From: a virus | Virus record (IMG/VR): IMGVR_UViG_3300023700_000899 | Span: 1-42,015 of that record | Length of the DNA: 42,015 nt | Reading direction: 5' to 3' (one strand) | In this document: positions 8,616 through 34,469 of the stretch, in pieces | Layout of the letters: the number at the start of each line of letters is the position of its first letter | Position numbering within the stretch: the stretch's first letter is position 1 | Translations under genes and position numbers: made by a program | The notes under the pieces: model-generated | The model's input: only the letters and a program-made list of their open reading frames with translations | Told to the model about the DNA's origin: nothing | Database searches by the model: none

Positions 8616-8634
8616 ATTCTAAGGAGCTTAGAAT
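8616..8634 (+). promoter_or_regulatory. Inverted repeat enclosing the Shine-Dalgarno sequence and start codon of nadM
   Basis: ATTCTAAG (8616-8623) is the exact reverse complement of CTTAGAAT (8627-8634), with a GAG loop. The ribosome site AAGGAG is in the stem and loop, and the first two bases of the ATG are in the other arm. When folded, translation initiation should be hindered; a binding protein or temperature could shift the balance. Confidence 0.6.
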
Positions 8635-9652
8635 GTCAAAAAAATACGACACTCTCGTCCTCATCGGACGCTTTCAACCATTCCATAACGCTCACCTTGA
8701 GATCATCAAGCGTAGCACTGCGCTCTGTAATAAACTGATTGTTATTACAGGCAGCGCAAAACAACCTCGCACATACAAGAATCCGTTCACTAGCTTTGAA
8801 CGTGAGATAATGATCAAGCGTGCAACTGCAGGTCTCGCGTTGACTATCAATGTCGTCGAAAACATCGACACAATCTACAACGACCAAGCGTGGGCCGTTC
8901 GCATCCAATCGATCGTGAATACTCTAGCATGCGATGGGGATAAGATCGGCATCATCGGTCACAAGAAAGATGACAGCTCATTTTACTTGGATATGTTCCC
9001 ACAATGGGGATATGAGAACGTCGAAGAGATCACACCACTGAGTGCTGTCAACATTCGCGACCTGTACTTCAAGCGCAACTGTAATCTCGAATTCATTCGC
9101 GGTGTGGTACCTCAAACCACTTTCGAAATCTTGCTGGACTTCAAGCAAAGCGAAGAGTATGAACAGATCATCCGCGAGCGTGAGTTTGTAGAGAACTACA
9201 AGAAGCAGTATGCATCACTCCCATATCCTCCAATCTTCAGTACTGCTGATGCTGTGGTGATCCAATCTGGTCACGTGCTAATGATTCGTCGTCGGGCTGA
9301 GCCTGGTAAGGGTTTGTGGGCGCTTCCTGGCGGATACGTCAATGCAAACACCGATAAGAGCGTTGAGGCTGCAATGCTCCGTGAGCTCCGTGAAGAGACA
9401 AAGATCAAAGTTCCTGAGCCAGTCCTACGCGGCAACATCGTCCGCAGCAAGGTGTTCGATGCCGTCGATCGTAGTCCTCGTGGCCGCATCATCACTCATG
9501 CATTCCACATTCAGTTGCCAGATGGCGAACTACCAAAGGTCAAAGGATCTGATGATGCTGAAAAGGCACGTTGGGTTCCAATTGCTGAAGTGAAGAGCGA
9601 AGACTGCTTCGAAGACCACTTTGAAATTCTCCAACACTTCTTGGGAGCTTAA
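8633..9652 (+). CDS. nadM: Bifunctional NMN adenylyltransferase / Nudix hydrolase (339 aa)
   Basis: The N-terminal nucleotidyltransferase domain carries GRFQPFHNAH (12-21) and the C-terminal NIRDL signature (about 140), and should make NAD+ from NMN and ATP. The C-terminal Nudix domain (about 205-339) has GG (233-234) and RELREE (250-255); fused NadM-type Nudix domains hydrolyse ADP-ribose. The Nudix box is atypical: the first Glu position is Lys and the final Gly of EETG is Lys. Vibriophage KVP40 has a characterised enzyme of this kind (NatV). Together with nadV at 12943 it completes nicotinamide to NMN to NAD+. It has its own promoter and a start codon inside an inverted repeat. Confidence 0.92.
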   Translation: MSKKYDTLVLIGRFQPFHNAHLEIIKRSTALCNKLIVITGSAKQPRTYKNPFTSFEREIMIKRATAGLALTINVVENIDTIYNDQAWAVRIQSIVNTLACDGDKIGIIGHKKDDSSFYLDMFPQWGYENVEEITPLSAVNIRDLYFKRNCNLEFIRGVVPQTTFEILLDFKQSEEYEQIIREREFVENYKKQYASLPYPPIFSTADAVVIQSGHVLMIRRRAEPGKGLWALPGGYVNANTDKSVEAAMLRELREETKIKVPEPVLRGNIVRSKVFDAVDRSPRGRIITHAFHIQLPDGELPKVKGSDDAEKARWVPIAEVKSEDCFEDHFEILQHFLGA

Positions 9653-12942: not shown

Positions 12943-14340
12943 ATGAAACTGAGCAAAAATATCTTATTGAACACAGACAGCTACAAAGTGTCAATGTGGA
13001 AGCAATACCCTGTTGGAACAACTGGCGTATTTTCTTACATCGAATCGCGTGGCGGTCGATACGATCAAACAGTGATGTTTGGTCTGCAAGCGTTCATCAA
13101 GGAGTACTTACTTGACCCCATTACACAGTCCGACATCGATATCGCCGAAGAGATTCTTCTCGCACACGGAGAGCCATTTAATCGTAGCGGCTGGCAGTAT
13201 ATCCTCGACAAGCACGACGGATATCTCCCCGTCATCATCCGAGCAGTCCCCGAGGGTACTGTGGTACCGGTTAAGAATGTCCTCGCAACCATCGAGAACA
13301 CAGATCCCAACGTACCGTGGCTGACTACATGGCTCGAGACTCCTTTGCTTCGTGCAATTTGGTATCCAACTACTGTGGCAACACAGAGCTGGTCGATTCG
13401 CAAAGTGATTTTGGATTATTTGGAGAAGACTGGTGACCCTGCTCTTATCGATTTTAAGTTACACGACTTTGGTGCTCGCGGTGTTAGTTCCCTTGAGTCC
13501 GCTGGCATTGGCGGCGCCGCGCACCTCGTTAATTTCATGGGTACCGATACTGTTACCGGTTTGTTGTATGCTCGTGAGTATTACAACGCTGGTATTAGTG
13601 GGTTTTCAATTCCTGCAGCCGAACACAGCACAATCACAAGCTGGGGTCGTGAAGGAGAAGTCGATGCCTACCGAAACATGCTTACAAATTTCGCTCGGCC
13701 CGGGTCCATTGTTGCAGTCGTTTCCGACAGCTACGATGTATTCAATGCCGCTAGCAAATTGTGGGGAGAAGAGCTCCGTCAGCAAGTGATTGATAGCGGT
13801 GCTACTGTCGTGATTCGTCCTGATAGTGGTGACCCTGTTGAAGTTAACCGCAAGTTGATTGAGATCTTAGGAGAAAAGTTTGGATACACTACAAACGCCA
13901 AAGGATTCAAAGTCCTCAATAATGTTCGCCTCATCCAGGGGGACGGTGTCAATGAGTTATCCATCCGCAGTATCCTTGGGGCACTCATGGCAATGGGATG
14001 GTCAGCAGATAACATTGCATTCGGTATGGGCGGTGCCTTGCTCCAGCAAGTCGACCGAGATACCCAGAAGTTCGCAATGAAGTGTTCTTCTGCCAAGATT
14101 AATGACGTATGGGTCGATGTACAAAAAGATCCAATCACTGATAGTGGTAAGAAGTCGAAGGCAGGCCGAGTTACTCTTTGGAAGAGTGGCGGCGAATGGA
14201 TCAGTAGCGTCGAAAAGCCAGCTGGCTGGCACGACAAGGCAACTGGTGAGTTCGTCGAAGTACTGGAAACAGTATACGCTAACGGAAAGTTGATTAACGA
14301 ATATACATTCGACAACATCCGAGCAAGAGCTCGCAAATAA
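12943..14340 (+). CDS. nadV: Nicotinamide phosphoribosyltransferase (NadV/NAMPT, 465 aa)
   Basis: Makes NMN from nicotinamide and PRPP, the first step of NAD+ salvage. Family motifs are intact: TDSYKVSMWKQYP (11-23), HDFGARG (174-180), GTDT (200-203), EHST with His228, matching the catalytic His of human NAMPT, and RPDSGDP (about 290). Length equals bacterial and human enzymes. KVP40 NadV is a characterised phage relative. With nadM it gives a two-step route that rebuilds NAD+ from nicotinamide, the product released by NAD-cleaving immune enzymes. It is transcribed from its own promoter and ended by a strong terminator. Confidence 0.95.
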   Translation: MKLSKNILLNTDSYKVSMWKQYPVGTTGVFSYIESRGGRYDQTVMFGLQAFIKEYLLDPITQSDIDIAEEILLAHGEPFNRSGWQYILDKHDGYLPVIIRAVPEGTVVPVKNVLATIENTDPNVPWLTTWLETPLLRAIWYPTTVATQSWSIRKVILDYLEKTGDPALIDFKLHDFGARGVSSLESAGIGGAAHLVNFMGTDTVTGLLYAREYYNAGISGFSIPAAEHSTITSWGREGEVDAYRNMLTNFARPGSIVAVVSDSYDVFNAASKLWGEELRQQVIDSGATVVIRPDSGDPVEVNRKLIEILGEKFGYTTNAKGFKVLNNVRLIQGDGVNELSIRSILGALMAMGWSADNIAFGMGGALLQQVDRDTQKFAMKCSSAKINDVWVDVQKDPITDSGKKSKAGRVTLWKSGGEWISSVEKPAGWHDKATGEFVEVLETVYANGKLINEYTFDNIRARARK

Positions 14341-18362: not shown

Positions 18363-19239
18363 TTCAGAATCGTTAAAGAAGTTCGTTGAAGAAAATCCAA
18401 AGCTGGTCTCTCGTCGACCAGCCGGCGATGGCATTTACGTCCTGAAATACAAAAAGACTGTATTCTATGATGGTTTGTGGAACGATTACTTAGAAGAGTG
18501 TCGTGGTATGATTGTGGATGAAGATTACAACATCGTGTCATACCCATTCACGAAGGTATACAACTATGGCGTAGAAGCGAAGTCGCCTGTGTTGGATGGC
18601 AGCACGAAGATCAAGGCATACCGTAAAGTTAATGGCTTTATGGTCGCTGTAACGTGGCATAAAGACGATATCCTTGTGTCAACTACAGGATCGACGGACT
18701 CCGATTATGTAAAAATGGCTCGTGAGTTTATCGATCGTGATTTGGATCTATACCGTGCTTGGTGTAAGGAATATTCGACATACACATTCATGTTTGAGTG
18801 TGTCCATAAGGATGATCCGCACATCATTCCAGAAGTGGAAGGGATGTATTTGCTAGGACACCGTCCAAAGTTCTTTGGTTCGCCAATTGGTGTGTCTGAC
18901 GACATGCACAAGGCATTCAACTGCCATTCGGTTGAAGCAATTGAGTGTACGTTAGATACACTACGTTCGTTGGCTAAGACGGTGAGGCACGAAGGGTTCG
19001 TATTCTATACGTTGGACGGCATGATAGGCTCTAAGATCAAGAGTCCACATTACCTAGTGTCTAAGTTTGTTGCTCGTAATCCACGAACTGACAAATTGAT
19101 GCGTCCAGATGTGAAGAAGTCGCTCGATGAGGAGTATTATCCATTAATCGATGCCATCCAAGCGAACATCGATGCATATACTGCTATGGACGAACAGACG
19201 CGACTATCGTGGGTGAGGGAGTTTCTTTCAGCTCAATGA
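18352..19239 (+). CDS. T4 Rnl1-like RNA ligase (295 aa)
   Basis: Motif I is YRKVNGFM with Lys92; LEECRGMIVDED (48-59) matches the conserved Arg motif before it; MFECVH (147-152), EGFVFY (214-219) and SKIKSPHYL (227-235) match motifs III/IIIa, IV and V. It is shorter than T4 Rnl1 (374 aa), mostly at the C-terminus, where T4 Rnl1 has its tRNA-specificity domain. Rnl1 reseals tRNA cut by host anticodon nucleases after end healing by Pnk. Its 3' end overlaps the convergent minus-strand peptidase gene by 56 bases. Confidence 0.85.
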   Translation: MKVNSESLKKFVEENPKLVSRRPAGDGIYVLKYKKTVFYDGLWNDYLEECRGMIVDEDYNIVSYPFTKVYNYGVEAKSPVLDGSTKIKAYRKVNGFMVAVTWHKDDILVSTTGSTDSDYVKMAREFIDRDLDLYRAWCKEYSTYTFMFECVHKDDPHIIPEVEGMYLLGHRPKFFGSPIGVSDDMHKAFNCHSVEAIECTLDTLRSLAKTVRHEGFVFYTLDGMIGSKIKSPHYLVSKFVARNPRTDKLMRPDVKKSLDEEYYPLIDAIQANIDAYTAMDEQTRLSWVREFLSAQ

Positions 19240-19888
19240 GGATTCTTCTAGCAAGAGCGTTTCGCGATGCTTTGCTAGGGGAGCCAAGAATCACGATGAT
19301 GTGTTCGTTGGTCGTCATTGCGATACACCAACCTGCAGCATTAGTGAATCCAGTCTTTGACCCAGTAATATGGGTAAACTCCTTTAACAGAGCATAGTTG
19401 GTATTTTGAATGAGGGCCAGATGAGCCCTCTTTCCTTTGGGCTCTATAACTTGGACAGTGGGCGCTGCTGCCGCTCTTATTTCTGCATACTTGGTAGCAT
19501 GTGCTATTAGGACAGCGATGTCGACTGCTGTAGAAGTGTTCATGCCGAGCCCAGATGGATCGACGAACTTTGTATCATTCATTCCAAGCTGCTTTGCTTT
19601 GAAATTCATCAGATGGATGAATTGTGGTCTGCCATAGATTGCAGCCAGCTTCTCAGCGGATTTGTTGTTGCTTTGTACGAGCATCGTGTCGATTAAGTAG
19701 CGATCATCGATGCCAAGTTCGATTGCTATGATTGCCGTCATCAGCTTCGTGATACTAGCTAGCGGACGTTGTGATGATTCATCTTGCTTCGCTACTACCC
19801 GACTGTGCTTCATATCAAACACAAACACAGACTCCTTAGCGAACGCTGGTGCCGCAAGCAGCAATAGGATGAGTAGCAGTTTCTTCAT
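19184..19888 (-). CDS. Exported peptidase S11 / D,D-carboxypeptidase-like enzyme (234 aa)
   Basis: A signal peptide (MKKLLLILLLLAAPAFA) and the penicillin-binding-protein triad are present: SITK (45-48), SNN (73-75) and KTG (178-180). In PBP5-type enzymes the SxN motif lies about 66 residues after the Ser; here it is 28, so a segment between them is missing. The PBP5 C-terminal domain and membrane anchor are also absent. It should act on peptidoglycan peptides in the periplasm, as a lysis aid or cell-wall modifier. It is the last gene of the minus-strand late-type group. Confidence 0.88.
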   Translation of the reverse strand: MKKLLLILLLLAAPAFAKESVFVFDMKHSRVVAKQDESSQRPLASITKLMTAIIAIELGIDDRYLIDTMLVQSNNKSAEKLAAIYGRPQFIHLMNFKAKQLGMNDTKFVDPSGLGMNTSTAVDIAVLIAHATKYAEIRAAAAPTVQVIEPKGKRAHLALIQNTNYALLKEFTHITGSKTGFTNAAGWCIAMTTNEHIIVILGSPSKASRNALARRILIELKETPSPTIVASVRP

Positions 19889-22289: not shown

Positions 22290-22318
22290 TTGCCAAACAC
22301 ACTGGTCTACGATACAAT
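22290..22318 (+). promoter_or_regulatory. Sigma-70 promoter of the envelope cassette
   Basis: TTGCCA (22290-22295), 17 base spacer, TACAAT (22313-22318). It lies in the 75-base divergent gap between the fibre gene and the 22349 gene. No later promoter or terminator is clear until past 26184, so the cassette may be one transcript. Confidence 0.75.
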
Positions 22319-22348
22319 TATTCCCATCACTAAATCAAGGAGTTTTCA

Positions 22349-22723
22349 ATGTTTTTTTTCAATTGCCGCGCAGAGCTTGATCAAGCGTTGTACGAAAACA
22401 AATGTCTTAAAGAGAAGGTCGAGCGCCTCGAGAACCGAATCATCCAGATCAATAAAGATCTCGCTGATGCTGAGAAGGCTGATGTCGCCTCATCGACGTT
22501 CACGATCGATTTCAACAAGATGGATGTGTTCTCAATCGAACGCCACATCAAGGGCGACAAAGCTGTGACTATCGTTGGTCACTTCTTACAAGAGCCTGTC
22601 AAAGTAAACAACGACGTCTTCACGTTGAATAAAATCACACGCGAATGGAATTTGTCGTGCAGCCAAGAACAGCACGAGCGCTTGGTCAAAGACTTCGCTG
22701 AATTCAAGAAGAAGCAAAAATGA
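22349..22723 (+). CDS. Coiled-coil protein, first gene of the envelope cassette (124 aa)
   Basis: Residues 8-40 form a leucine-rich coiled coil (CLKEKVERLENRIIQINKDL). The rest is a small mixed domain (FTIDFNKMDVF, VTIVGHFLQEPVKV). AAGGAG precedes the ATG. It is cytoplasmic by appearance and its stop overlaps the next start. Confidence 0.75.
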   Translation: MFFFNCRAELDQALYENKCLKEKVERLENRIIQINKDLADAEKADVASSTFTIDFNKMDVFSIERHIKGDKAVTIVGHFLQEPVKVNNDVFTLNKITREWNLSCSQEQHERLVKDFAEFKKKQK

Positions 22724-22896
22724 TTAGAATGATCCTGACCTTCGTGGTCCTGTTTGGTTGTTTCTTCTTCGGAATCAACGCAGTACGCCACATGAGTGGC
22801 AAAGACCAACTTGAGTTGGCAAAGCTGATTGCATACAGTACAATGTGCTCTGTGCTTACGGTAATGGTCCTTATCGGATTCGTTATCTTGTTTTAA
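22720..22896 (+). CDS. Small two-span membrane protein (58 aa)
   Basis: Two hydrophobic segments (MILTFVVLFGCFFFGI and MCSVLTVMVLIGFVILF) flank a short charged loop (MSGKDQLELAK). Starts in an ATGA overlap. Confidence 0.7.
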   Translation: MIRMILTFVVLFGCFFFGINAVRHMSGKDQLELAKLIAYSTMCSVLTVMVLIGFVILF

Positions 22897-22915
22897 CAAC
22901 CTTAAAAGGTACTTT

Positions 22916-23101
22916 ATGAAAATCTTGGCTCTGATTCTCGCTGCAGCAGCATTGACTGCTTGTGGTAAGATTGATCGCACGATCGCTAGCTTTACTGGCG
23001 ATGCATCGAAGACGTGCGTTGACGGTGTTACGTATCTCCAGTTCACATCTGGTGCTGCTCCTCAATACACAATTGACGGCAAACTTGTTTCTTGCAAATG
23101 A
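22916..23101 (+). CDS. Small lipoprotein (61 aa)
   Basis: The signal peptide ends in lipobox LTAC (Cys16). The mature part is about 45 residues with two further Cys. Its stop lies 11 bases before the start of the SPFH lipoprotein. Confidence 0.75.
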   Translation: MKILALILAAAALTACGKIDRTIASFTGDASKTCVDGVTYLQFTSGAAPQYTIDGKLVSCK

Positions 23102-23112
23102 AAGGCAATCAA

Positions 23113-23904
23113 ATGAAACGACTGTTTATCTTGGCTACGATTTTGTTCGGGGTCTTCCTGACAGGTTGTACTCGAATTGAATCTGGTACTGTCGGCTTGC
23201 GAGTCGATATGTCACGACAAATCCAAGGGGTTGAATTGCAACCTGGTTCTTGGAATCAAACTCTGATCGGTAGCGTGCTTGAATTCCAAGTTCGTTCGAT
23301 CCCTACTGGTTGGGAAAATCTGCGACCACAAACTGCTGATAACTCAACTCTGAAAGACTTCGATATCAATATCATCTATGAAGTCAATCCAGCTTCAGTG
23401 TCTGAATTGTGGACAAATCAATCACGTTCATTCCACACATACGAACATGGTGACTGGATGCTGATGCGCAACTATATGTCTCAAGCATTGAACTCTGCTA
23501 CTGCAAAAGCAGTACGTAAGTACAAAGCGCTGGAAGTTGCTGACCGTCGCAGCGATATCGAAAAAGATGTCCACGATATCTTGATGGATATGCTGAAAGA
23601 AGAAAAGCTCGAAAAGGCTTTGACTGTCAGCCAAGTCCGTGTGACGAATGCTACACCAGCAGACGACATCGTCGCATCCGCTAACGCTGCAGTTCGTGCT
23701 CAGAACGATCTGCGAACAAAGCAAATTGAAGTTGATATTGCGAAGCAAGAAGCTATCCGTATCCAAACTTTGAACAGCAACTCACAAGCTATTCCATACA
23801 TGAACGCAATGGCTCAGATGGAAATCGCTAAAGCTATTCGCGAAGGTAAGGTTAACACAGTCGTCATCCCTCAAGACTTCAAAGGTCTTGTGAACGTCAA
23901 GTAA
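23113..23904 (+). CDS. SPFH/band-7 (prohibitin-like) lipoprotein (263 aa)
   Basis: Start at ATG 23113 because the signal peptide begins there and AAAGG lies 7 bases upstream. Lipobox LTGC (Cys19). The mature part opens IESGTVGLRVDMSRQI, as SPFH/prohibitin domains do ('G.VGV.V'), then FDINIIYEVNPASVSELW, and a long C-terminal helix (about 175-230: NAAVRAQNDLRTKQIEVDIAKQEAIR). SPFH proteins build large ring or cage scaffolds on membranes and hold proteases or stabilise lipid domains. Its lipid anchor places it on the periplasmic side. The next gene is PspA-like, a linkage also seen in bacterial membrane-stress loci. Confidence 0.85.
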   Translation: MKRLFILATILFGVFLTGCTRIESGTVGLRVDMSRQIQGVELQPGSWNQTLIGSVLEFQVRSIPTGWENLRPQTADNSTLKDFDINIIYEVNPASVSELWTNQSRSFHTYEHGDWMLMRNYMSQALNSATAKAVRKYKALEVADRRSDIEKDVHDILMDMLKEEKLEKALTVSQVRVTNATPADDIVASANAAVRAQNDLRTKQIEVDIAKQEAIRIQTLNSNSQAIPYMNAMAQMEIAKAIREGKVNTVVIPQDFKGLVNVK

Positions 23905-23921
23905 ACAACAACGAGGTCGAT

Positions 23922-24656
23922 ATGAATCAAAATGTATTCCGTGCGGTATTTGGTCTGGGGGCAGTTGCAATTCTTGCAATCCTTGCTCCAATCATCTGGG
24001 CCGCGGCAAGCGCTGGCGTTGGACTGATTGCACTCGGTGTTATCGGCCTCGTTGGTATGGGCTTCATCCAAGCAATCCCATTGTTTGGACAGAAGATCGA
24101 AAACCGAATCCTTAAAGCTCGCAAGGCTGAGGCTCGTGAGAATCCAATCGAACAGTTGCAAAACTTCTTGCGCCAAAAGGCTCAACAAGTTGCAGACTTC
24201 AAGACTGCAGTGACGTCGATTAACGCTCAGATCAAATCGTTGCAAGACATGGTTGCGCAACGTAAGAAGGAACGTCCTAGTTATGATGCATCTGCGCAAG
24301 AGAAGTCAATCCAAGCGATGATCGAAGCGTACAATGCATTGAAACAAAAGTACATCAACGCCGAAAACGCTCTTGCTGAATTGAAAATTGCAATTCAAGA
24401 CAAGGAATTTGAATGGAAGTTTAGCCAAGCTGGCCAAGCAGCAATGCAAAGCCTGAGTGCTTCGTCTGGTAAGGACTTGATGGAAGCGATGTTGGCTGAC
24501 GAAGCATTGAGCTCTGTAACATCCAACTTCAACCAAGTGTTTGCTGAGTTGGAAATGGAAGCGCAAAATCTGACCAGCGCAAAGCAACTGAGCTTTGATT
24601 CTGGAATGACAATTGATGTCTCTGCAATTAACTTGACTACAAAGGTGCCAGCATGA
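23922..24656 (+). CDS. PspA/ESCRT-III-like membrane coiled-coil protein (244 aa)
   Basis: Two adjacent hydrophobic segments (about 9-30 and 32-53) precede a long coiled-coil region (70-215: NPIEQLQNFLRQKAQQVADF, SINAQIKSLQDMVAQRKKE, AQEKSIQAMIEAYNALKQKY) and a short C-terminal tail. The helix spacing and NPIEQL start resemble PspA/Vipp1, which coat and remodel stressed membranes. True PspA has an amphipathic helix instead of transmembrane spans, so this is a membrane-anchored variant or a look-alike. It directly follows the SPFH gene. Confidence 0.65.
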   Translation: MNQNVFRAVFGLGAVAILAILAPIIWAAASAGVGLIALGVIGLVGMGFIQAIPLFGQKIENRILKARKAEARENPIEQLQNFLRQKAQQVADFKTAVTSINAQIKSLQDMVAQRKKERPSYDASAQEKSIQAMIEAYNALKQKYINAENALAELKIAIQDKEFEWKFSQAGQAAMQSLSASSGKDLMEAMLADEALSSVTSNFNQVFAELEMEAQNLTSAKQLSFDSGMTIDVSAINLTTKVPA

Positions 24657-24937
24657 AAGTATTGAAACCATTCTTGGTATTCTGGTTGATGGTTGCTCTG
24701 TCGATCGCTGCATTCGCAAAAGGTGGTGGCGGCGGTGGAGGCCACGGCGGAGGCGGTGGCCATGCAAGCAGCGGTCATGCTAGTAGCAGCCACGCGACAT
24801 CTACTGCAAAGGCGGCACCTGCACCCGTGGTGGCTCCAGTCGTAGTACAACCAGCCCGTCCAACTCCGGTTGTCGTTCCACCAGCACGTGGTGGACAATC
24901 GGAAGAAGAAAAACGCAAGAAGCAACAAGCAAAGTAA
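24653..24937 (+). CDS. Exported Gly/His-rich and Pro-rich protein (94 aa)
   Basis: A signal peptide (VFWLMVALSIAAFA) is followed by a Gly/His tract (GGGGGGGHGGGGGH), a Ser/His/Ala stretch, and a Pro/Val stretch (PAPVVAPVVVQPARPTPVVV), ending in a basic tail (EEEKRKKQQAK). It looks disordered and may bind metal through His or adhere to the wall. Overlaps the PspA-like stop by 4 bases. Confidence 0.75.
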   Translation: MKVLKPFLVFWLMVALSIAAFAKGGGGGGGHGGGGGHASSGHASSSHATSTAKAAPAPVVAPVVVQPARPTPVVVPPARGGQSEEEKRKKQQAK

Positions 24938-24946
24938 AGGTGTAGC

Positions 24947-25081
24947 ATGGACTTCTATAAAGTGTTAAAATATGCGCTGTCGGTAGTGTTCATCATTATC
25001 GTCGGCCTAGCGATGGTAAGCGTCGATGATGGCGCATCGCAACCAGTTTCTCAACAACCTCAAACCAAGTTCAACTTCTAA
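24947..25081 (+). CDS. Small membrane-anchored protein (44 aa)
   Basis: One transmembrane span (LSVVFIIIVGLAMV) followed by a short Gln-rich tail (SQPVSQQPQ) on the likely periplasmic side. An AAAGG site precedes it. Confidence 0.7.
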   Translation: MDFYKVLKYALSVVFIIIVGLAMVSVDDGASQPVSQQPQTKFNF

Positions 25082-25090
25082 GGAACAAAC

Positions 25091-26011
25091 ATGAAAAAGT
25101 ATGTAATTGCAACATTGCTCGCTTTGAGCACACTTGGTGCATATGCCGCACCAGCCAACGACGCTCCTGCCGCTGATTGCGAAGGTGTTAAGTTCGCGAC
25201 CGGTCCTAAGGGCAAAGGCTACTCCACTCTGTATGCAGACTTGAATAAGCTGCTTGGTGGCAAGGTCGCGATGTGTGAATTGAACACAACTGGTGGTCTG
25301 GACAACTTGAACGCATTGTCGACCAAAGATGCTGACATCGGCATCGTTCAAATCGATACATGGAACGACATGAAGAATGGCGACGAGAACATCGCCAACC
25401 TGCAAGCAGTGATGCCATTGAATAGCAACTACTTGCACATCGTTACATCAGTTAATGGTATCCAAGGCGAAAAGAAATTCGGCTTGATCAAAGGCGATGT
25501 CAAGATGATCAACCGCTTCAGCGATCTTCGCGGTCAACGAGTAGCAGTTGTTGGTTCTGCCCAATTGCTTGGCCGTAAGCTCGAGAAATCTGTTGGCTAT
25601 GGCATGCAATTCATCGACTCTAAGTCTGATGCAGAAGCATTCGACATGGTCCGCAAAGGTCAAGTTGCGGCAGCAATGACAGTTAGCGGCTGGCCTTCTG
25701 GCACTGTTAAGCAATTGAGCCAAGCTGATGGTCTGACTCTGGTGCCATTTGATGCTCCTATCGGTGAGCCATACAAAGTGAAAGCGTTGAACTACAAGAA
25801 CATCGCTGTGTATAACAACAACTCACTAGCAATCCCCAACGTGTTGGTTTCTCGTTCATTCTCTGGTCAACGTGCAGCAAATGTTGCAGCAATCCAAGCT
25901 GGCATCGTACGTAACCTGACTGAGCTGAAAGAAGGCAACTACCAACCAGCTTGGAACGAAGTCAACCCGAATGCAGCCATCAACGGTATGGCTAAGTTCA
26001 AAGCAAAGTAA
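25091..26011 (+). CDS. Periplasmic TAXI/TRAP-type solute-binding protein (306 aa)
   Basis: A cleavable signal peptide (MKKYVIATLLALSTLGAYA) precedes a type II periplasmic binding fold. FATGPKGKGYSTLYADLNKLL, CELNTTGGLDNLNALSTKDADIGIVQ and LRGQRVAVVG follow the TAXI pattern ('TG..GG.Y', 'T.GS..NL..L..G.AD...VQ'). Such proteins deliver small organic solutes to TRAP permeases. No permease gene is in the window, so it is an orphan: it may feed a host TRAP system, bind a signal, or protect the envelope. It closes the cassette that starts at 22349. Confidence 0.8.
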   Translation: MKKYVIATLLALSTLGAYAAPANDAPAADCEGVKFATGPKGKGYSTLYADLNKLLGGKVAMCELNTTGGLDNLNALSTKDADIGIVQIDTWNDMKNGDENIANLQAVMPLNSNYLHIVTSVNGIQGEKKFGLIKGDVKMINRFSDLRGQRVAVVGSAQLLGRKLEKSVGYGMQFIDSKSDAEAFDMVRKGQVAAAMTVSGWPSGTVKQLSQADGLTLVPFDAPIGEPYKVKALNYKNIAVYNNNSLAIPNVLVSRSFSGQRAANVAAIQAGIVRNLTELKEGNYQPAWNEVNPNAAINGMAKFKAK

Positions 26012-26064
26012 GATAACCCCCGCAGTGTGCGTAAGGGCAACGTCAATAAGTCCCTTCCGATAAT

Positions 26065-26184
26065 ATGCAAGAAATCTTAATCTCAATTGGTCTGATCACG
26101 TTTGCAATCGTATTCGTGATTTCCGCATATAAGTCAGTCGCTAAGCTGACTGAACAACACAACCAAAGCACAAGAGCAGAATAA
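26065..26184 (+). CDS. Small membrane protein (39 aa)
   Basis: One transmembrane helix (ILISIGLITFAIVFVISAY) and a short polar tail. Its stop is one base before the nucleotidyltransferase gene. The 53 bases before it hold no convincing promoter. Confidence 0.6.
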   Translation: MQEILISIGLITFAIVFVISAYKSVAKLTEQHNQSTRAE

Positions 26185-26185
26185 C

Positions 26186-27142
26186 ATGGAACAAAAAGTG
26201 AAACGTGGCTTCAAGCGCAAGACGATCGAACAAACAATCCGCAACAAAATGAAGGGTTGGTTCGCATCGATTGACGATATCGAGTTGCGCGATGAATTGA
26301 AGAAGCACTACATCGTCACTGGTGGCGCAATCACTTCGATGTTGCTTGGTGATTTGCCTAACGACTACGATGTGTATATCGATAATGTCGACACAGCAGC
26401 AAAGCTCGCAAACTACTACGTCAGCCGTTTGCCGTCGTCTGACAACGAATGCACGAAGACTCCAATCGTTTCTGTTCCACCAGAAGGTGGTCGTGTCGAG
26501 ATTAAGGTCCAATCTGCTGGCATTGCTGGTGAAGAAATCGACCAAGATGGATATGAGTACTTCGAGATGTATCCAGACGCGACTAGTCGCACCATGGCAT
26601 ACTTGGAAGGCGCTGCAGCGAAGAGTACAGGCAAATACACTGCACTTGCAATCACGACAAACGCAATCACGTTGTCTGACCAAGTTCAAGTGATCTTGCG
26701 GTTCGTTGGTCCTGCAAATGAGATCCACAAGAACTATGACTTTGTCCACACGACAAACTACTTCACTGAAGGAGAAGGTGTTGTGTTCCAACAGGACGCA
26801 TTGGAATCTATCCTTGCTCGTGAATTGAAGTATGTTGGTAGCCGCTATCCAATCTGCTCGTTGTTCCGTATCAAGAAGTTCATCAAGCGTGGTTGGACAA
26901 TCACTGCTGGTGAAATGTTGAAGATCGCATATGATATTGCAAAGCTCGACCTCAACAATCCAGTCGTTCTCCAAGATCAATTGACTGGCGTTGATGCTGC
27001 ATACTTCAACCAGATCCTTCGATTGATCAAAGAAGAGAACAAACCGATCGAACGTACATACTTGTTCGAATTGATTAACCGTGTATTCGATGAAGATGAC
27101 GACATCGATGCAGCTGCAGAAGGAACGACAGATGTTCAATAA
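26186..27142 (+). CDS. Pol-beta-fold nucleotidyltransferase (318 aa)
   Basis: VTGGAITSMLLGDLPNDYDVYI (about 44-65) is the GG...D-x-D core of the poly(A) polymerase/CCA-adding class; VEIKVQ (about 100) may give the third acidic residue. The C-terminal half (RYPICSLFRIKKFIKRGWTI) could bind RNA as in those enzymes. It may add nucleotides to RNA 3' ends, fitting the RNA repair genes at 15-19 kb, or act on a protein or small molecule. Confidence 0.75.
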   Translation: MEQKVKRGFKRKTIEQTIRNKMKGWFASIDDIELRDELKKHYIVTGGAITSMLLGDLPNDYDVYIDNVDTAAKLANYYVSRLPSSDNECTKTPIVSVPPEGGRVEIKVQSAGIAGEEIDQDGYEYFEMYPDATSRTMAYLEGAAAKSTGKYTALAITTNAITLSDQVQVILRFVGPANEIHKNYDFVHTTNYFTEGEGVVFQQDALESILARELKYVGSRYPICSLFRIKKFIKRGWTITAGEMLKIAYDIAKLDLNNPVVLQDQLTGVDAAYFNQILRLIKEENKPIERTYLFELINRVFDEDDDIDAAAEGTTDVQ

Positions 27143-33588: not shown

Positions 33589-33739
33589 CTTGACAGTCGT
33601 CGATAAGGCGGCATTTGAAGTTGCGATTATGCAAGCGATGGTGCTTTCAGTGCAGAACCTTGCACGCCAGGTTGAGCAGTTGACTATACGTGTCGAGCGC
33701 CTAGAAGGAAATGATGATGGAAAAGATATTTCGCAGTAA
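33566..33739 (+). CDS. Small coiled-coil protein (57 aa)
   Basis: A heptad-like helix (VLSVQNLARQVEQLTIRVERLE) dominates. It overlaps the SLOG gene by 23 bases and the following gene by 23 bases in different frames. Confidence 0.6.
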   Translation: MNTTIESDLTVVDKAAFEVAIMQAMVLSVQNLARQVEQLTIRVERLEGNDDGKDISQ

Positions 33740-34469
33740 GTGGGCTAAGCTAACAATCAGTCGCTATATGCACTGGACCATCAAGTATGAAGTGCCTTCT
33801 GATGATTGTGATTCGTGGGAATGGGACAATGAGCGACCACACGGCCAACGTGCAATTCATCGCGCATGGATTATCATTGGCATTGGACGTTTGTTTTTCC
33901 AACTGTACTTGTGGAAGGTAACACCATTCGAAGGCAGCTGGGATGGTGATAATACGAAGCAATATGGCATTACATACTTCGAACGATCGCTCCATGTTCA
34001 TTGGGGCCGCACTAAGGTTTATTGGTTGCCTTGGGATTGGAAGATCGTCCGTCACGACTTGCTTCATATGGATGGCAGTCTCTACTATCGCAACTCATAC
34101 CCAATCAAGAAAAGATCATATTCTTGGTATGAAGTATTGGAGATGAAAGAATCACCATTCCCTAGGTCGGATGTTCAAACACAAGTTGCAGATTACGTTG
34201 AACTCACTCACTACACTAAGGATGGTCGCAAGCAAGTAGCAATGATCCGACTCGTTGGTGAAGAGCGCGAATGGAGATGGCGTTGGTTTAGCTGGCTGCC
34301 GTGGCCAAGACAAATCAGTCGAGTTGTCGATTGTTCATCTGACGTTGAGCTCGGCGAAAGGGCTGGCTCATGGAAGGGTGGGATGATGGGTTGGAGTGCT
34401 CCCTTAGAAAAGGGACAGTCTTTGAGAGAAGCATTCTATGCATGGTACAGGAAGTGGGACGGCCGATGA
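33717..34469 (+). CDS. Trp-rich protein, unknown function (250 aa)
   Basis: ATG 33717 is chosen from three consecutive ATGs because AAGGA lies 7 bases before it. I count 21 Trp in 250 residues, many in clusters (YWLPWDWK; EWRWRWFSWLPWP). The first half includes HWTIKYEVP and HRAWIIIGIGRLFFQLYLW. The family is not known to me; Trp clusters suggest carbohydrate or membrane-surface binding. Confidence 0.75.
   Translation: MEKIFRSKWAKLTISRYMHWTIKYEVPSDDCDSWEWDNERPHGQRAIHRAWIIIGIGRLFFQLYLWKVTPFEGSWDGDNTKQYGITYFERSLHVHWGRTKVYWLPWDWKIVRHDLLHMDGSLYYRNSYPIKKRSYSWYEVLEMKESPFPRSDVQTQVADYVELTHYTKDGRKQVAMIRLVGEEREWRWRWFSWLPWPRQISRVVDCSSDVELGERAGSWKGGMMGWSAPLEKGQSLREAFYAWYRKWDGR

Follow-up and report, generated by a model that had tools for sequence, protein, structure and literature searches.

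A coiled-coil, micropeptide and TAXI-type solute-binding protein trio beside an SPFH lipoprotein in a large phage, and its kinase-linked bacterial counterpart

The action of solute-binding proteins (SBPs) on sensor kinases is an established principle, as in TorT/TorS and LuxP/LuxQ, and these systems, together with XylFII/LytS, place an SBP-fold protein beside a membrane sensor kinase and a regulator (PMC6321045). Among SBPs of the TAXI type, VcGluP (PMC11574862) and TtGluBP belong to the TRAP class, and BP0403 is a lipid-anchored TAXI protein coupled to gltS (PMC12344293). SPFH genes have been reported from the T4-like phages 44RR, Aeh1 and RB43 (PMC1524935), and SPFH peptides were recovered in the proteomics of the Vi01-like phage Sajous1 (gp200; PMC10892097); phage-borne SPFH itself is hence already known and not new. 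Here we describe a gene block (22349–26184) in a 42 kb piece (hereinafter the window) of the virus record IMGVR_UViG_3300023700_000899, which derives from a large phage. It combines an SPFH lipoprotein and its small membrane partner (module A) with a trio of a coiled-coil protein bearing a transmembrane (TM) hairpin, a single-TM micropeptide and a TAXI-type SBP (module B). The trio is conserved across phages and has a kinase-linked counterpart in bacteria, a notable finding of which our literature search found no description; a search for papers on phage TAXI proteins likewise found none.

Across 23 viral records, relatives of the coiled-coil protein and the SBP keep the gene order of the window, and at least 17 of these records have a TM micropeptide between the two. 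The set includes Achromobacter phage Motura and the Vibrio phages RYC and Va1. At the DNA level no copy of the block was found in GenBank phages, and tblastn searches with the window versions of the two proteins returned nothing there at 1e-5; relatives with weak E-values were later confirmed by profile. The distance matrices of the two proteins are correlated (Mantel r = 0.77 across 27 loci and 0.72 across the 17 phage loci, p = 0.0001), indicating co-evolution. In the trees of both, the window clade groups with all but one of the ten bacterial sequences discussed below, with other phage lineages lying outside, an arrangement compatible with either direction of transfer. Three records (G005, G007 and G008) yielded only the micropeptide and SBP pair. 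In another locus (L113, 5001–6871), the coiled-coil gene is followed by a single open reading frame (ORF) combining an N-terminal TM segment with SBP_bac_3 and LysM domains, a natural exchange of the SBP for one of a different class. This membrane-anchored chain supports, without proving, the idea that the micropeptide serves as the anchor of the SBP.

The bacterial set comprises ten trio loci in seven genomes, drawn from a genome scan with the coiled-coil protein (four beta-proteobacterial metagenome-assembled genomes), their paralogues and a survey of 301 genomes. All ten show a 4 bp overlap between the coiled-coil and micropeptide genes, and the surrounding genes are chromosomal rather than phage-derived. 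In nine of the ten, the trio has genes for a histidine kinase and its response regulator beside it, the tenth being cut by a contig end. The kinase has a Cache-PAS-HisKA-HATPase architecture with a REC-GerE regulator downstream in L132–L135 and L137/L146, and is of the HisKA_3 type, again with REC-GerE, in L142; in L145, L147 and L150 the kinase–regulator pair is divergent from the trio. No DctM or GltS-like gene was recognized beside the bacterial trios. Four of the ten loci (L143, L144/L150, L133/L148 and L146) additionally contain a same-strand Band_7 gene no more than 6 kb away, against 0.06 expected (Poisson P ~6e-7), these loci being related to each other. The linkage of SPFH, coiled coil and SBP that the original prediction, made from the bare letters of the window, had drawn is accordingly not a one-off. 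L147 (3459–7522) also encodes, beside the trio, another TAXI-like SBP, this one of 404 aa and TM-anchored; it belongs to a divergent operon that includes a kinase and regulator of its own.

Such partners are missing from the phage versions. Among ten phage records tested, several of which are fragments and three of which (Motura, RYC and Va1) are complete, none codes for the TRAP membrane subunit DctM, and REC and HisKA domains were found neither in the window record nor in eight of nine others. Thus, relative to TorT/TorS-type pairs, with which the bacterial trio shares its general layout, the phage forms lack the kinase and regulator and possess an added TM-hairpin coiled coil and micropeptide, any contact with a kinase being only putative.

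The assignment of the SBP, already proposed in the original prediction, was borne out by a match to NMT1_3 (PF16868; E = 1.3e-11, 45.1 bits against a cut-off of 27). It also matches NCBIfam TIGR02122 (E = 3.9e-16), at 58.8 bits under the cut-off of 84.35, and a profile of its family recovers TAXI proteins of solved structure, with E-values from 1.9e-16 to 7.6e-10. Tyr45 and Gln93 are the most important glutamate contacts of VcGluP (PMC11574862). The former position is occupied by Tyr in 28 and Phe in 3 of 31 family members, and the latter by Gln in 27 of 31, the window protein having Tyr and Gln, respectively. The retention of these contacts in most of the SBPs argues that the pocket is kept, and the ligand is probably glutamate-like. 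The protein hence resembles VcGluP and TtGluBP in profile, in most glutamate-contact positions and in its length of ~306 aa. However, it is phage-encoded, lacks a TRAP membrane subunit, falls under the TIGR02122 cut-off and, as in the rest of the window clade, has Asn at the position of VcGluP Glu125. With BP0403 it shares the absence of a TRAP permease and a putative retention at the membrane, but the phage system has a separate TM micropeptide in place of a lipid anchor and no recognized gltS.

The coiled-coil protein displays a predicted N-terminal hydrophobic hairpin, a positive flank behind it and then a long coiled coil. It had been described as PspA-like, and we reject this identity on sequence: a Pfam search at E ≤ 0.1 gave no match to PspA_IM30 (PF04012), and hhalign against E. 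coli PspA and YjfJ gave 1.6%. Moreover, no PspA_IM30 domain was found anywhere in the window record at E ≤ 10, in a search that was positive in 12 of 14 control genomes. An AlphaFold model from a 19-sequence alignment was of low confidence (pLDDT 62.5), and a 3-sequence run with its Foldseek search was uninformative. Foldseek placed Vipp1/PspA filaments among 592 non-significant matches to that model (best E = 0.075). The likeness to these ESCRT-III-like proteins lies in the low-confidence model, where short helices come after a long helical hairpin; the N-terminal TM hairpin is absent from PspA.

The SPFH lipoprotein of module A, already named as such in the original prediction, exceeds the curated Pfam cut-off for Band_7 (54.7 bits against 23.6), matches PHROG_200 'lipoprotein' (E = 2.9e-30) and has an LTGC lipobox. 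A lipobox pattern occurs in 66 of 73 full-length homologues, and five more have a CTRI site as judged by eye; in most homologues CTRI comes after the lipobox. With HflK/HflC-type SPFH proteins and other phage SPFH lipoproteins (PHROG_200) it shares a Band_7 domain and coiled-coil tail, but differs from the former in having a lipoprotein signal instead of a TM anchor, as well as a conserved partner: a 58-aa two-TM protein is encoded directly upstream in 58 of 77 SPFH loci, and is exactly 58 aa long in 49 of those 58. Module A is widespread in phages, usually without the trio. Compared with G001, the closest relative used for comparison, synonymous divergence (dS) is 1.38 for the SPFH gene and 0.88 for the gene of a Gly/His-rich protein lying within module B, versus 0.08–0.35 for the other genes of the block, which indicates that both were exchanged by recombination relative to G001. 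In phage 44RR, the SPFH ORF is adjacent to one with an N-methylation motif (PMC1524935), and in a locus of another record (G002, L018 7704–9315) a pseudopilin-like ORF (9067) comes soon after the SPFH gene.

The genes of the block (Table 1) are consecutive, on one strand and separated by gaps of at most 54 nt, and the two modules are probably in one transcription unit. A promoter-like site with -35/-10-like elements is well placed upstream, but a scan finds 4 such sites against 7.1 in shuffles. The ratios of nonsynonymous to synonymous divergence against G001 (~0.02 for the SBP, ~0.03 for the coiled-coil protein and ~0.06 for the SPFH protein) point to selection on real genes. The original prediction had presented this block as an all-envelope cassette. 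Its core of an SPFH lipoprotein, membrane coiled coil and periplasmic SBP, tightly packed on the same strand, was recovered, as was the exported Gly/His protein. In contrast, the first product has no evident TM segment or signal, so that the envelope label does not extend to every member. Two small TM ORFs (the 44- and 39-aa products) had gone unnoticed in that prediction, so that the trio had been recognized in part only. As a single unit, the cassette held up in part: the full arrangement of both modules is intact in the window and in G001, but the modules are separate in most phages. The phrog_4400 gene downstream also occurs in a locus (L004) without the trio and is probably separate from the block.

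Table 1. Features of the block in the window and of its immediate flanks
Feature	Position	Strand	Remarks
Promoter-like site TTGCCA-17-TACAAT	22290..22318	+	Upstream of block; consensus match only
124-aa coiled-coil protein, no TM	22349..22723	+	Precedes the 58-aa/SPFH pair in 7 loci
58-aa two-TM protein	22720..22896	+	Conserved SPFH partner (module A)
61-aa small lipoprotein	22916..23101	+	phrog_7772, E = 1.9e-13
263-aa SPFH/Band 7 lipoprotein	23113..23904	+	Module A; Band_7 E = 1.8e-14, lipobox
244-aa TM-hairpin and coiled-coil protein	23922..24656	+	Module B; phrog_27316
94-aa exported Gly/His-rich protein	24653..24937	+	Within module B, window lineage only
44-aa single-TM micropeptide	24947..25081	+	Module B; predicted periplasmic Pro/Gln tail, C-terminal TKFNF
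306-aa exported TAXI-type SBP	25091..26011	+	Module B; phrog_6856, NMT1_3
39-aa single-TM ORF	26065..26184	+	Between SBP and next gene; DNA conserved in G001, match in shifted frame
318-aa phrog_4400 protein	26186..27142	+	After block

Elsewhere, the window has the gene content of a large phage, with a DNA ligase, two RNA ligases, the NAD salvage genes NadM-Nudix (8633–9652) and NAMPT (12943–14340), and a homologue of the CBASS inhibitor Acb3 (33711–34469; PF25187, E = 3.1e-29). A Peptidase_S11 protein resembling D-Ala-D-Ala carboxypeptidases is encoded on the minus strand (19184–19888). Downstream of the Motura trio (L107, 7734–10559) we observed genes for a homospermidine synthase, a small lipoprotein and a glutathionylspermidine synthase.

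Based on the above, we posit, with confidence that is evenly divided, that the phage trio, beside the SPFH module, is a sensory front end without a kinase, anchored to the inner membrane. The TAXI-type SBP would bind a small, probably glutamate-like ligand in the periplasm, the single-pass micropeptide would hold it at the inner membrane, and the TM-hairpin coiled coil would relay its state to the cytoplasmic side. In beta-proteobacteria, the trio would inform the adjacent two-component system of a Cache/PAS histidine kinase and LuxR-type regulator, as TorT does TorS and LuxP does LuxQ. The phages would have kept this front end without the kinase, regulator and permease. Given the absence of the kinase, the phage trio would act on host signaling or on some output of the phage: its likeliest use may be to bias or occupy host envelope signaling during infection. 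The SPFH lipoprotein, predicted to face the periplasm, may organize a membrane patch.

Several observations weigh against this proposal. Most phages do not have the SPFH gene linked to the trio, and no Band_7 gene accompanies it in the complete genomes of Motura and RYC. In the window the SPFH gene was swapped separately from its neighbors, with a dS of 1.38 against 0.08–0.26 for most flanking genes; joint action of the two modules is therefore uncertain. The Asn at the Glu125 position leaves glutamate specificity unsure, and strong homology statistics cannot be expected of proteins as short as the micropeptides. One phage record (G009) does carry a hybrid histidine kinase (250288–253061 of a 260 kb viral contig), far from its trio. 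On the bacterial side, a trio encoded next to a kinase is not necessarily coupled to it physically, the kinase being divergent in three loci, and the trio is rare (present in 4 of the 301 genomes surveyed from a single family), such that most hosts may lack a cognate kinase.

Alternatively, the SBP could scavenge nutrients, supplying a host transporter (TRAP, GltS or another) with glutamate or a similar acid for synthesis during infection. The conserved ligand contacts would suit such a role, as would the link of permease-less TAXI SBPs to GltS (PMC12344293) and the other metabolic genes of large phages; five loci (L013, L105, L114, L116 and L118) have NAMPT or NAPRTase genes no farther than ~7 kb from the trio, a proximity that chance or synteny could explain. 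We nevertheless consider scavenging unlikely: DctM was found in 0 of 10 phage records, the bacterial trios are accompanied by a kinase and regulator with no DctM or GltS-like gene recognized alongside, and the coiled coil, the micropeptide and the SBP of L113, held by TM and LysM elements, would be left unexplained.

Similarly improbable, in our estimate, is envelope protection, wherein the SPFH and coiled-coil proteins would stabilize the inner membrane, exclude superinfecting phages or tune lysis timing. The SPFH lipoprotein is genuine, the coiled-coil protein combines a TM hairpin with weak Vipp1-like fold matches that do not reach significance, and one record (G007; L013, 11448–17231) has a row of genes for an exported Gly-rich protein, the lysis-inhibition proteins rIIA and rIIB (PHROG 1e-129), the micropeptide and the SBP. 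However, the coiled coil fails the sequence tests for PspA, rII genes went undetected in the window as well as in G001 and G006, and no link to holins or exclusion genes was found. With respect to anti-defense roles, PADLOC returned weak coiled-coil matches only. A general linkage to rIIA was rejected, being confined to G007. We found no direct evidence for the superinfection block, resistance to abortive systems or lysis delay originally suggested; the strongest link is to bacterial two-component sensing, which the original prediction had not raised. A loose cluster of morons, with envelope genes acquired independently and adjacent by accident, would accommodate the separability of the modules in most phages and the distinct histories of the SPFH and Gly/His genes; yet the strong order and co-evolution within module B, and the recurrence of the SPFH–trio linkage in bacteria far above chance, make this very doubtful.

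Returning to the sensory front end, the trio is shared with other large phages and lies beside a kinase in some bacteria; phages may therefore hold a bacterial sensing device without its kinase. More tentatively, at somewhat short of even confidence, large phages of several lineages might use it to capture or jam envelope two-component signaling of the host, or as a stand-alone periplasmic sensor reporting to the phage on the state of affairs outside the inner membrane. Apart from lysis and exclusion, few phage proteins are known to function in the periplasm. In bacteria, the trio is the mark of a two-component system that includes, in addition, a coiled coil and a micropeptide. If our proposal is true, lytic phages would read or rewrite host envelope signals via a dedicated periplasmic receptor.

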